Part shown: positions 57,579 through 61,772 of the stretch, piece after piece | How positions within the stretch are numbered: position 1 is the stretch's first letter | Layout: every line of letters begins with the position of its first letter | Source of the DNA: Simplicispira sp. 125 | GTDB taxonomy: Bacteria; Pseudomonadota; Gammaproteobacteria; Burkholderiales; Burkholderiaceae_C | Length of the DNA: 64,000 nt | NCBI RefSeq assembly: GCF_003096555.1 | Contig: NZ_QEKM01000001.1 | Span: 1,240,001-1,304,000, forward strand | Direction of reading: 5' to 3' | Program-made: the position numbers and the translations under genes | The notes under the pieces: model-generated | What the model was told of the DNA's origin: nothing | Seen by the model: only the letters and a program-made list of their open reading frames with translations | The model's database searches: none

Positions 57579-57661
57579 GGAATGGAAACGAGCCGCCAGG
57601 GCCCCAGAGAGCATCGCCGAGCCAACACACACAAGCCCACCAGCGGGTAACAGCTGCGGGA

Positions 57662-59188
57662 ATGGCCATGGCTGAAAATGCCATTATCACCCGCATGTCC
57701 ACATCTCCGCTGGACATCGCCGCGGCCGACTGGAACGCCCTGCTGGCCCTGCAAGCCCAGCCCACCCCCTTCATGCGCCACGAATACCTGGCCGCCCTGC
57801 ACGAGAGCGGCAGCGCTACGCCGCGCACTGGCTGGACGCCGCGCTTTCTCTCGCTCTGGCAGGGCGATGTCTTGTGGGCCGCCTGCCCGCTCTACGTCAA
57901 AAGCCATTCCTACGGCGAATATGTGTTCGACTGGGCCTGGGCCAACGCTTATGCAGAGCATGGCCTGTCCTACTACCCCAAGGCGGTGGTGGCCGTTCCC
58001 TTCACACCGGTTCCAGGCACGCGCCTGATGGCGCGGGACTGTGAGGCCCGCGCCGCGCTGGTGCAGGCGCTGCGCGACTGGTGCACGCAGGCCGGCGTCT
58101 CTTCGCTGCACCTGCTGTTTGCGGACGATACAGACATGGATGCCTGCAAGGCAGCAGGACTGATGCAACGCCAGACGGTGCAATTCCATTGGAAGAATGT
58201 GGCCCCCACGCTCGGCACTGGCGTGTCCTCGCTGCCCCCCGAGGGGGCTCTCGCCGCCTTGGGGCGGCCCGGCGGCGGCTCAATGGCCCCCACGCTCGGC
58301 ACTGCCGTGTCCTCGCTGCCCCCCGAGGGGGCTCTCACCGCCTTGGGGCGGCCCGGCGGTGGCTCGATGGCCCCCACGCTCGGCACTGCCGTGTCCTCGC
58401 TGCCCCCCGAGGGGGCTCTCACCGCCTTGGGACGGCCCGGCGGCGGCTCAATGGCCCCCACGCTCGGCACTGCCGTGTCCTCGCTGCCCCCCGAGGGGGC
58501 TCTCACCGCCTTGGGGCGGCCCGGCGGCGGCTCGGTGGCTTACCGCGATTTTGACGATTTCCTGTCCTGCCTGAGCCAGGAAAAGCGCAAGAAAATCCGC
58601 CAGGAGCGCCGCCGGGTGGCCGACGCAGGCGTGCGTTTTGAGTGGCGCCAGGGCACGGACATTGCATCCAGCGACTGGGATTTTTTCTACCGCTGCTACG
58701 AGCGCACCTACCTGGAGCATGGCAATCCGCCCTACCTCACACGGGATTTCTTCCGGCGCATGGCGGCCCACATGCCTGAGGCATGGTTGCTGTTCATCGC
58801 AGAACGCAATGGGCAGCAAATTGCTAGTAGTTTGATAGCTATTAGCGCTTATCCATCAAGCGTTACAGGCCAAAAATACTCTGAATTCGTAGCCTATGGC
58901 CGTTACTGGGGTGCCTTGGAGCGCGTGGACTGCCTGCACTTCGAAGCCTGCTACTACCAGCCGCTGCAGTGGTGCATAGCGCACGGTGTGCAGCGCTTTG
59001 AAGGGGGCGCCCAGGGCGAACACAAGATGGCCCGTGCCCTGCTGCCCGTGCCCACCCACAGCGCCCACTGGCTCGCACATCCGGCTTTTGCCGATGCGGT
59101 GGGTCATTACCTGGAACGCGAAGGCGTCGGCATGGCGAACTACCTGGAGCAGTTGCAAGCGCGCAACCCCTTACGTACCCCGGATTAA
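57662..59188 (+). CDS. FemAB-like acyltransferase (DUF482) with in-frame repeat insertions
   Basis: A 508-residue member of the DUF482/FemAB-like GNAT group: N-terminal half with FMRHEYLAALHESGSA..GW.P.FL, ACPLYVKSHSYGEYVFDWAWANAYAEHGLSYYPK, and C-terminal half with YRDFDDFLSCLSQEKRKKIRQERRRV, CYERTYLEHGNPPYLTRDFF, FEACYYQPLQWCIAHGVQRFEGGAQGEHKMARALLPV. Between the halves lie four 28-residue repeats (about residues 181-292), and another insertion encodes SAYPSSVTGQKYSE. Family length is near 380. The start could also be 57668 or 57695. Ends 4 bases before the convergent EAL gene. The substrate is unknown. Confidence 0.88.
   Translation: MAMAENAIITRMSTSPLDIAAADWNALLALQAQPTPFMRHEYLAALHESGSATPRTGWTPRFLSLWQGDVLWAACPLYVKSHSYGEYVFDWAWANAYAEHGLSYYPKAVVAVPFTPVPGTRLMARDCEARAALVQALRDWCTQAGVSSLHLLFADDTDMDACKAAGLMQRQTVQFHWKNVAPTLGTGVSSLPPEGALAALGRPGGGSMAPTLGTAVSSLPPEGALTALGRPGGGSMAPTLGTAVSSLPPEGALTALGRPGGGSMAPTLGTAVSSLPPEGALTALGRPGGGSVAYRDFDDFLSCLSQEKRKKIRQERRRVADAGVRFEWRQGTDIASSDWDFFYRCYERTYLEHGNPPYLTRDFFRRMAAHMPEAWLLFIAERNGQQIASSLIAISAYPSSVTGQKYSEFVAYGRYWGALERVDCLHFEACYYQPLQWCIAHGVQRFEGGAQGEHKMARALLPVPTHSAHWLAHPAFADAVGHYLEREGVGMANYLEQLQARNPLRTPD
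58201..58536. repeat. Four tandem 84-bp in-frame repeats
   Basis: Copies begin at 58201, 58285, 58369 and 58453. Copy 1 differs from copy 2 at few positions, and others at one to three. Each encodes the 28-residue unit containing TLGTAVSSLPPEGALTALGR and PGGGS. Each holds the palindrome GCCCCC-CGA-GGGGGC, as in REP-like intergenic elements. The array lies inside the FemAB-like gene and is open in several frames on both strands. Confidence 0.95.
58815..58878. repeat. Dispersed stem-loop repeat inside the FemAB-like gene, copy 10
   Basis: AAATTGCTAGTAGTTTGATAGCTATTAGCGCTTATCC-ATCAAGCGTTACAGGCCAAAAATAC, a full copy in the coding frame, encoding IASSLIAISAYPSSVTGQKY. Its AT-rich codons contrast with the surrounding gene. 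Confidence 0.85.
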
Positions 59189-59192
59189 AGAC

Positions 59193-61772
59193 TCAGTAGT
59201 CGGTTTGCGCCTGCTCCAGCAGTTGCAGAAACTGCGCTGCGGGCACCGGGCGGCTGTACAAGTAGCCCTGCACCTCCTCACAGCCCTGGGCCTGCAGAAA
59301 AGCCAGCTGGCCAGTCGTCTCCACGCCTTCAGCGATGGTATGCATGCCCAGGCTGCCGGCCATGGAAATGATGGCGCTCACGATAGCCCGGTCATCAGGG
59401 TCGGTGGTGATGTCGCGCACGAAGGTCTGGTCGATCTTGACCTTGTAGACCTTGAACTTCTTCAGGTAGCTGAGTGACGAATAGCCCGTGCCGAAGTCGT
59501 CGATGGACAGCAAAATGCCACGCTGGTGCAGCTTGTCCATGATGGCAATAGCGCCGTCCGGATCGGTCATGGCCACACCCTCGGTCAGTTCCAGCTCCAG
59601 GCAACGGCCGGGCAGACCCGCCTCATCCAGGATGGCGCCGATGCGCTGCACCAGATCGGCCTGGCGGAACTGCACCATTGACAGGTTGACCGCCATGGTC
59701 AACCCATGGCCCGCCTGCATCCATTCCTGAAGTTGGCGCGTCGCGGTGCGCAGCACCCATTCGCCAATGGGCAAAATCATGCCGCTGCTCTCGGCCACCG
59801 GAATGAATTCCGCTGGAGATACCTGTCCCAGTTCGGGGTGCTTCCAGCGCAGCAGGGCCTCGGCGCCGATGATGGCCCCCGTAGCGACCGAAATCTGGGG
59901 CTGGTAATGCAGCGTGAGCTGATCTCGCTCCAGAGCGCGCCGCAGGGCGTTTTCAAGCAACAGTGTGCGCTCGGAGCTGGCCTGCATCTCGGCCGTGAAA
60001 AACCGAAAATGGTTGCGCCCGTGTTGTTTGGCGTAGTACATGGCCGCATCAGCGCAGCGCGACAAACTATCAAAGTCCGTACCGTCGCCCGGGAACATCG
60101 CAATACCGATGCTGGGCGTCACGGTCAGCTCATGCGACTCTATCTCGAAGGGTTCGGCGGCCGCGTGCAGCAGCTTCTCGGCCAAGTGGGCCGCGCCGAG
60201 CGCATCGGTGTCCGGCAGCACCACAATGAACTCATCCCCGCTGAGGCGCGAGACAGTGTCTTGTTCGCGCACCATGGCGATGAGGCGCCGCGCCATCGCC
60301 TGCAACAAGGCATCTCCCACACGATGGCCGAGTGAATCGTTGATTTTCTTGAAATGGTCCAGATCCAGAAAAAGCAGCGCCAGCGACTGGGTGTGTCGTT
60401 GGGCCATGATGATCGCCGTATGGCAACGGTCTGCCAGCAAAACACGGTTGGGCAGGCCGGTCAGCGCATCGAAATGGGCCAGTTGGCGCACCTGCGCTTC
60501 GTCCAGCTTGTTCTGGGTAATGTCACGGGACAGCACCACGAAGCGCGGGCCTACCCCCGGTTGTACAGCCTTGCGCGCCACGGAAAGTGCAAACCAGCGT
60601 TCTGCGCCCCCCTGCTGGAACAAGCGAATTTGCGCACCTGAAGCCCAGCTTTTTTGATTCGCTTCATGGATGGCGTCCAACACCGCCCGGGCGGCATCCT
60701 GCGGCATGATTTCAACCACCGATCGGCCCAGCAACTGGTCGGCTGCGGGGATCAACATATCCTTGCGAGGCACATGCGCGCTGTAATAGCGCCCCTCCAG
60801 GTCCATTTCAAACAACAGGTCGGGGATGGCATTGACCGTGGCTTCCAATTGCTGTTGCGTGGCCAGGATTTCGCTGGTGCGCTGCGCAACCAGCGCTTCG
60901 AGCTGGGTATCCCGAATACGCATGGCGTACAGCAGCCATGCGAGGTAAGCCATCAGCAGGCTGACAAAGACACCCACCAACGCCTCCAGCACCCGATCTG
61001 CCGTGTGGTACCAACCTGCAAGGGGCGCCACACTCAGTGTCCAGGCGCCATTGGGCAAAGCGAGTGTGCGCTCGACAGGGTCGATCAAGGCCTGCGCATT
61101 CCATGTCTCGATTTGCTGGCGTTCACCCGTTTCGGGCACCTTGCGCCACAACGCATAGGCATAACCGCGTTCGCTCAGTACGGGCAGACGGGCCGCATCC
61201 AGCGCCTGGGGGAACCGCAGGGTGGCATAAGAAAAACCCCAGAACCGGCGCTCGCCATCCGCTGCGGTGAGATAGATCGGCAAACGCCCCACCACCCCCA
61301 AGCCCCCTTGCGCCAATTGAAGTGGCCCTGCCAAAGTTAATTTACCTGTGTCACGCGCCAGGCGCGCCTCGCGGTTCTGCGCAATGTCCGTCAACTGGTT
61401 GAAGCCCAGGCTCTTTTCATTGCCCGCCAGCGGTGACACACAGCAAATGATGCCGTTGGGCGCCAGGCCCAGGGCGGCGATGCCCGGGTAGAAGGGCAGC
61501 ATTTCAGTCGCCACCCCATCAAAGTCCAGCACTTCACCCCCCCCTTGCCGAACCAAGGCCGCCATCGCATAGGTGGCTGAAAGAGCCCGATCGATACCCC
61601 GCTGCAATGCCTGGGCATGGTCTGCTGCCAAGTCCGCTGCCAGCGCCTTGCTCTTGTCGACTTGTTGCTGCACCGAGTGACGATCCCACAACTGCACCAT
61701 CAGCAGGCCAGACACCAGCACCAGCAGTGACACAAGCCACTGTCGTTGACGGGGGGTGATGTGGAGGATCAA
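59193..61772 (-). CDS. CHASE-PAS-GGDEF-EAL membrane c-di-GMP protein
   Basis: An 859-residue sensor. An N-terminal membrane helix (WLVSLLVLVSGLLMVQLW) leads to a periplasmic CHASE-type domain (MLPFYPGIAALGLAPNGIICCVSPLAGNEKSLGFN, LPIYL, FWGFSYATLRF), a second helix (VFVSLLMAYLAWLLYAM), a PAS domain (about 320-430), a GGDEF domain and an EAL domain (GAEALLRWKHPELG, DDFGTGYSSLSYL, TIAEGVETTGQL). The GGDEF active site reads SGDEF, a variant found in some active and some inactive cyclases. EAL residues appear intact, so phosphodiesterase is the safer output. Confidence 0.93.
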   Translation of the reverse strand: MILHITPRQRQWLVSLLVLVSGLLMVQLWDRHSVQQQVDKSKALAADLAADHAQALQRGIDRALSATYAMAALVRQGGGEVLDFDGVATEMLPFYPGIAALGLAPNGIICCVSPLAGNEKSLGFNQLTDIAQNREARLARDTGKLTLAGPLQLAQGGLGVVGRLPIYLTAADGERRFWGFSYATLRFPQALDAARLPVLSERGYAYALWRKVPETGERQQIETWNAQALIDPVERTLALPNGAWTLSVAPLAGWYHTADRVLEALVGVFVSLLMAYLAWLLYAMRIRDTQLEALVAQRTSEILATQQQLEATVNAIPDLLFEMDLEGRYYSAHVPRKDMLIPAADQLLGRSVVEIMPQDAARAVLDAIHEANQKSWASGAQIRLFQQGGAERWFALSVARKAVQPGVGPRFVVLSRDITQNKLDEAQVRQLAHFDALTGLPNRVLLADRCHTAIIMAQRHTQSLALLFLDLDHFKKINDSLGHRVGDALLQAMARRLIAMVREQDTVSRLSGDEFIVVLPDTDALGAAHLAEKLLHAAAEPFEIESHELTVTPSIGIAMFPGDGTDFDSLSRCADAAMYYAKQHGRNHFRFFTAEMQASSERTLLLENALRRALERDQLTLHYQPQISVATGAIIGAEALLRWKHPELGQVSPAEFIPVAESSGMILPIGEWVLRTATRQLQEWMQAGHGLTMAVNLSMVQFRQADLVQRIGAILDEAGLPGRCLELELTEGVAMTDPDGAIAIMDKLHQRGILLSIDDFGTGYSSLSYLKKFKVYKVKIDQTFVRDITTDPDDRAIVSAIISMAGSLGMHTIAEGVETTGQLAFLQAQGCEEVQGYLYSRPVPAAQFLQLLEQAQTDY

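Follow-up and report, generated by a model that had tools for sequence, protein, structure and literature searches.

A FemAB_like enzyme of Simplicispira sp. 125 carries, between its two halves, four tandem in-frame copies of an 84-nt palindromic element, and we attribute this array, with considerable confidence, to a non-autonomous palindromic element that inserted in frame and then expanded in tandem. Dispersal of the element, covariation of its hairpin arms, genic copies in both orientations, insertions of whole codons, patchy presence and differences in copy number are all directly observed. The kind itself is not new: palindromic inserts that keep the reading frame are best documented in Rickettsia, and REPs offer further examples from several other species. 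In the bacterial family studied here, such an element resides in DNA ligase and UvrA as well as in tRNA synthetases and cofactor enzymes. The sites involved, which range from empty to those with one to five copies, are natural replicates for studying the tolerance of enzymes to insertions and the movement of the element. They also call for caution in annotation because the APTL...SLPPEGA...LGRPGG peptide should not be taken for an ordinary protein domain: it arises when a dispersed DNA element is translated.

The tandem array

The window, that is, the entire 64-kb stretch of DNA analyzed here, contains one tandem array detected by Tandem Repeats Finder, at 58200-58533, with a period of 84, 4.0 copies, 96% matches and no indels. 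In full, the array consists of four 84-nt elements at 58200..58535 on the plus strand, in frame with the host ORF, at 28 codons per element; this register is equivalent to the coordinates given in the sequence-only reading of this DNA, with a shift of one base. The units occupy positions 58200..58283, 58284..58367, 58368..58451 and 58452..58535, all on the plus strand, and the next four bases, TGGC (58536-58539), again match the start of a unit. Each element encodes the peptide APTLGTxVSSLPPEGALxALGRPGGGS followed by one more residue. The units differ at 2-4 of the 84 bases. Comparison of the unit sequences shows that units 2, 3 and 4 have two changes in common relative to unit 1, at unit positions 22 and 54, suggesting that these three units probably derive from a later duplication, and that unit 1 encodes the same peptide (GTG...ALAAL) as both units found at this site in a relative from the same genus (G015). 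The expansion looks recent, as had been proposed from the sequence alone, given the few differences among the units and the existence of near-identical proteins with other copy numbers. An Rfam search of 57600-59300 yielded no matches at E up to 1.

The host protein

The host gene (57662..59188, plus strand) is an open ORF of 508 aa that encodes an acyltransferase-type protein with two FemAB_like halves. In Pfam, the protein matches PF04339 (FemAB_like) over two stretches (1e-133, 446.5 bits against a curated cut-off of 27), the better of which covers residues 293-505 and begins directly after the array; there is also a match to Acetyltransf_6 (4e-8). The repeat detection, the open ORF and the PF04339 match agree on what had first been read from the letters, namely, a four-unit, 84-bp, in-frame array inside a FemAB-like enzyme.

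The AlphaFold2 model of the host protein, based on 42 sequences in the alignment, has a mean pLDDT of 64.5. The regions flanking the array on both sides are mostly confident, and residues 171-290, which correspond to the array, all have pLDDT values below 50 and are almost entirely coil. The array is thus predicted to be disordered and would probably serve as a floppy linker of variable length between the FemAB_like halves. By adding 4 x 28 residues, it brings the distance between the anchor residues to 117, compared to 5 in the shortest empty homologues. Such 28-codon steps alter the length of the protein without silencing the gene, which speaks against the copy-number phase variation envisaged in the sequence-only reading. 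No sequence relatives of the insert-free host homologue were found in the PDB at E up to 1.

The same gene contains a second dispersed repeat, unrelated to the 84-nt element (SLIAISAYPSSVTGQKYSE; approximately 58823..58884, plus strand), that is in frame and maps to a predicted loop between two strands (residues 398-406 of the model, pLDDT below 50). Because both inserts fall in low-confidence coil or loop of the model, they appear to be placed where length should matter little. This second repeat is AT-richer and has 29 matches in the genome, itself included; among the 20 of these 29 that were examined by reading, the other 19 are intergenic or at a gene edge. The homologues from the genus that were read have similar DNA at this site, and the FemAB_like homologues read from other families have a shorter stretch there, as do some Comamonadaceae homologues.

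Hairpins and reading frames of the element

The 84-nt unit comprises three hairpins, described here for unit 1 (plus strand). Hairpin 1 (58214..58227; GGCAC....GTGTC) is formed by other pairs in other copies, and a few copies have no such hairpin. Hairpin 2 (58234..58248; GCCCCCCGAGGGGGC) is the REP-like palindrome and is near-invariant across copies. Hairpin 3 (58251..58281) has arms that covary between copies: on average, 6.19 of 8 positions pair between an arm and its own partner versus 3.81 of 8 in the swapped-partner control (sd 0.19, highest value 4.51 in 2000 permutations), in a test that included 37 different arm pairs out of 47 copies and ignored kinship between copies. One unit on its own shows no gain in folding stability over shuffled sequence (z of -0.19 as RNA and -0.45 as DNA) and, therefore, the claim of structure rests on covariation. 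The GCCCCC..GGGGGC palindrome is present in every unit of the array, and the unit is dispersed in the genome and in the family, so the description of the unit as REP-like is borne out. The covariance model used below was built on 47 copies selected among 75 non-redundant ones. An enlarged variant of the element, with a longer middle part (PQAGEGxPASP-type peptide), is found at L161, P0105, P0111 and P0163.

The possibility that the element is specially stop-free was rejected. Stops occur in 11 of the 48 frames of 8 intergenic copies in the genome of origin and in 30 of the 252 frames of 42 intergenic copies in G133, a genome of a second genus; in shuffled sequence, 15-20% of the frames contain stops. 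Accordingly, the open frames of the genic copies require no special design, and selection after insertion suffices.

Distribution across genomes

A genome search for the 84-bp unit, which the sequence-only reading had proposed as a check, produced 23 BLAST matches in the genome of origin, including the four in the array, and 27 matches with the covariance model. The latter represent 17 well-scoring loci (24 copies) and 3 weak loci; four of the 17 are tandem, namely, the array in the window with 4 units, two loci with 2 units and one with 3 units. Across the bacterial family, the element was detected in 49 of the 60 genomes (one per genus, own included) and not found in the remaining 11, with at least 66 matches in the richest genome. 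Among other families of the order, 5 of the 58 genomes contain the element, with 1-4 matches each. The element is, then, a dispersed REP-like repeat found mostly in a single family of this order.

Copies within genes

By reading, 12 of the 17 well-scoring loci in the genome of origin lie inside genes with an open frame, in either orientation, and 5 are intergenic, a verdict that is a judgement from ORFs and third-position GC, with two of the loci scored as intergenic (L035 and L042) also located within long open frames. The 3 weak loci are intergenic or at a gene edge. Sense copies are found in the genes for the FemAB_like protein, LigA, ThrC and an aminoacetone-oxidase-family flavoprotein. 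Antisense copies reside in the genes for an RND permease, PurK, two P-type ATPases, acetoacetate--CoA ligase, UvrA and polyamine aminopropyltransferase; the twelfth genic locus, also antisense, encodes a protein that is Fic-like by eye and has no NCBIfam match. For 11 of the 12 host proteins, there is a matching family model, with the RND permease scoring under the curated cut-offs. Other species from the genus carry the element in frames matching ValS, LeuS, CobQ, TrpF (N-terminal), AmgK, HolB and UvrA, where the AmgK, HolB and UvrA matches are under the curated cut-offs.

The proportion of genic copies differs in G133: among the 40 of its 63 matches that were read, 7 loci look genic and open, with the proteins named by eye, so that gene invasion is the minority mode there and not the main mode everywhere. 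The notion that the unit is an extragenic element nevertheless does not fit the genome of origin.

Two UvrA-related loci on one contig of G017 deserve mention. At L156, a UvrA-like frame seems, by eye, to hold both repeat families in frame, and at L155, a fragment matching UvrA contains three tandem antisense units.

Empty sites and flanking sequence

Comparison of filled and empty sites shows net insertions of whole codons in both LigA and ThrC. In LigA, the insert is 81 nt long and all 21 of the 21 aligned relatives from the genus are empty, the nearest being G015, with 95% identity in the right flank and 86% in the left flank. In ThrC, the 84-nt insert is common to 1 of the 20 aligned relatives, and the other 19 are empty. 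Because close relatives are empty, both inserts look young, as judged from these sequence comparisons. No clear target duplication or excision footprint is apparent by eye in the LigA and ThrC empty-site alignments.

At 76 sites, the A+T content before the element, at positions -9 to -3, is 57% versus 35% farther upstream (p about 1e-24, with each base counted as independent, kinship ignored, and a few of the sites orthologous between relatives). By eye, the upstream A-richness is visible at the FemAB_like sites and absent at the LigA site.

Presence and copy number at the FemAB_like site

Within the genus, where the site was readable in 12 of the 18 genomes searched, the FemAB_like gene contains 4 units in the window, 3 in G012, 2 in G015, 1 in G016 and none in eight genomes. 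Among the best 80 of 588 loci from relatives (other genomes), a set biased towards the insert-carrying query, 17 have the element or its remnant at the FemAB_like boundary after FHW-x-N. A search with an insert-free query (120 matches listed) gives the insert as absent in 113 and present in 6 of the 119 readable homologues; in a further homologue set, 58 of 119 proteins were unreadable with the anchors used. A tree of 102 FemAB_like proteins, with the insert excised, implies at least 14 changes between the filled and empty states at one codon boundary between the halves; the tree is a quick one, made without a mixture model, and the parsimony count includes gains and losses alike. Such patchy presence excludes an ancient domain common to all homologues, which the sequence-only reading had listed among its possible refutations. 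Degenerate stretches that look like decayed elements are seen at the FemAB_like site in L112, L092 and P0160.

The use of one codon boundary in several genera, by several element subtypes, might be taken to mean that the insert is a domesticated functional linker whose length tunes the spacing or dynamics of the FemAB halves and whose copy number is under selection. The arrays also remain in frame, up to five clear units (P0121 and P0138, the latter with a degenerate sixth). Yet, the close homologues found with the insert-free query are predominantly empty, and of the close sisters P0118 and P0057, with branch lengths of 0.014 and 0.022, one has the insert and the other lacks it. Furthermore, the element is present within many unrelated enzymes, and the array is predicted to be disordered. 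Domestication, therefore, appears unlikely to us; the relatives in which the site is empty or decayed point to tolerance instead.

We assign a similarly low probability to the possibility that the insert is an ancestral module of FemAB_like proteins that was lost many times and kept similar to the genomic copies by gene conversion. Parsimony is blind to the distinction between gain and loss, and the close likeness of the units inside one array would be compatible with conversion. However, three tree rows from other families (L138, L140 and L143) have no insert, the element subtypes at this site vary by genus (GT, V, P, AT), and the LigA and ThrC inserts are apparently young.

The copy number differs even among the closest homologues. 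Among proteins whose flanks match those in the window at 97% identity or more, 8 have one unit, 5 have two and P0121 (a record named Simplicispira piscis) has five, compared to four in the window; for most proteins with one or two units, the source is not given, and collapse in short-read assemblies is possible. Family-wide, the count in the homologues ranges between zero and five clear units, in line with the prediction that the site is length-tolerant. The 84-bp units are shorter than the common short-read length. Inflation or collapse of the array in assembly, which had been named as a potential refutation, is highly improbable: the units are distinguished by particular bases, G012 and G015, which were assembled separately, have arrays too, as does the five-unit S. 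piscis record, and the unit is also present at many other loci. The part of this concern that stands pertains to the metagenome counts of 1 and 2, which could be collapsed.

CobQ is another site where a codon boundary is reused. In three genomes from two genera, the element follows HGLPEEDGVFD at an identical codon: G017 has two units there, G015 has one, and G133, which represents the other genus, has one of another subtype. The site is empty in all 28 of the 28 readable loci among the 30 examined in the family search, own genome included. In G031 and G044, where the matches extend into the insert, CobQ may be filled.

A scenario for insertion and expansion

Under the scenario of in-frame insertion followed by tandem expansion, an approximately 84-nt, three-hairpin element would have inserted in frame at the junction of the FemAB_like halves and grown to four copies by tandem duplication. 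Movement would involve a DNA-level copying mechanism that acts on hairpins beside A/T-rich targets and leaves no visible target duplication, with the hairpin DNA conceivably transposed by an enzyme acting in trans. Whole-codon, stop-free copies would be retained where they are tolerated in disordered loops, units could be gained and lost via slippage or unequal recombination, and the effect on the enzyme would be near neutral. A more ambitious version, in which a family-wide mobile element, moved by a transposase, repeatedly seeks fixed codon boundaries (FemAB_like linker, CobQ), inserts as whole codons and acts as a natural source of disordered linkers, variable in length, for core enzymes, is conceivable, even if we rather doubt it.

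A RAYT/Y1 transposase as the mover is unsupported in the genome of origin, the one genome in which this was examined: the lone Y1_Tnp gene has no element in the surrounding 3.3 kb. This gene (L300, 1174-1878, minus strand) is flanked by different inverted repeats, GGGGTCAGA and TCTGACCCC, and resembles the tyrosine transposases associated with terminal inverted repeats (TIR) and GGGGWSAS motifs, as these are presented in PMC3733652.

Relationships to known repeats

In the open-access literature, we found no printed description of the element, of the reuse of a codon boundary across genera, or of in-frame tandem growth. By analogy, the closest functional parallel is the Rickettsia palindromic elements, which, according to PMC10969869, are dispersed, occur in frame in unrelated genes, encode a conserved peptide and are apparently tolerated. 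Here too, a dispersed palindromic repeat is in frame in several unrelated ORFs. Compared by description, the Rickettsia elements are about 150 nt long, whereas those described here are 84 or 81 nt long and belong to another bacterial family; unlike the former, they occur in both orientations, form variable tandem in-frame arrays and reuse one codon boundary across genera.

The GTAG- and CGTC-tagged REPs provide another precedent. PMC3733652 (2013) reports intragenic REPs in uvrA, DNA ligase and tRNA synthetase genes, a recB REP at about one site in two Xanthomonas species, REP clusters that encode 43-82 residues, and head-tail dimers that are absent, under-represented or negligible. The element described here is likewise found within uvrA, ligase and tRNA synthetase frames. 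However, the consensus derived from 47 aligned copies lacks both tags and, in place of a 20-40 nt hairpin, there are three hairpins in 84 nt, with copies arranged in head-to-tail arrays. GTAG REPs are often located near a RAYT (Y1) gene, whereas no RAYT link was found here, in one genome.

Similar to MITEs, the element is short, dispersed, of non-coding origin and presumably moved in trans. It appears to differ from MITEs in its internal hairpins, with no end-to-end terminal inverted repeat noticed on inspection of the alignments, and in the lack of a clear target duplication in the empty-site alignments of LigA and ThrC. In protein-coding minisatellites, the number of in-frame units varies between close relatives, and the same is the case here, although, unlike in minisatellites, the unit is itself a dispersed element of the mobile type.
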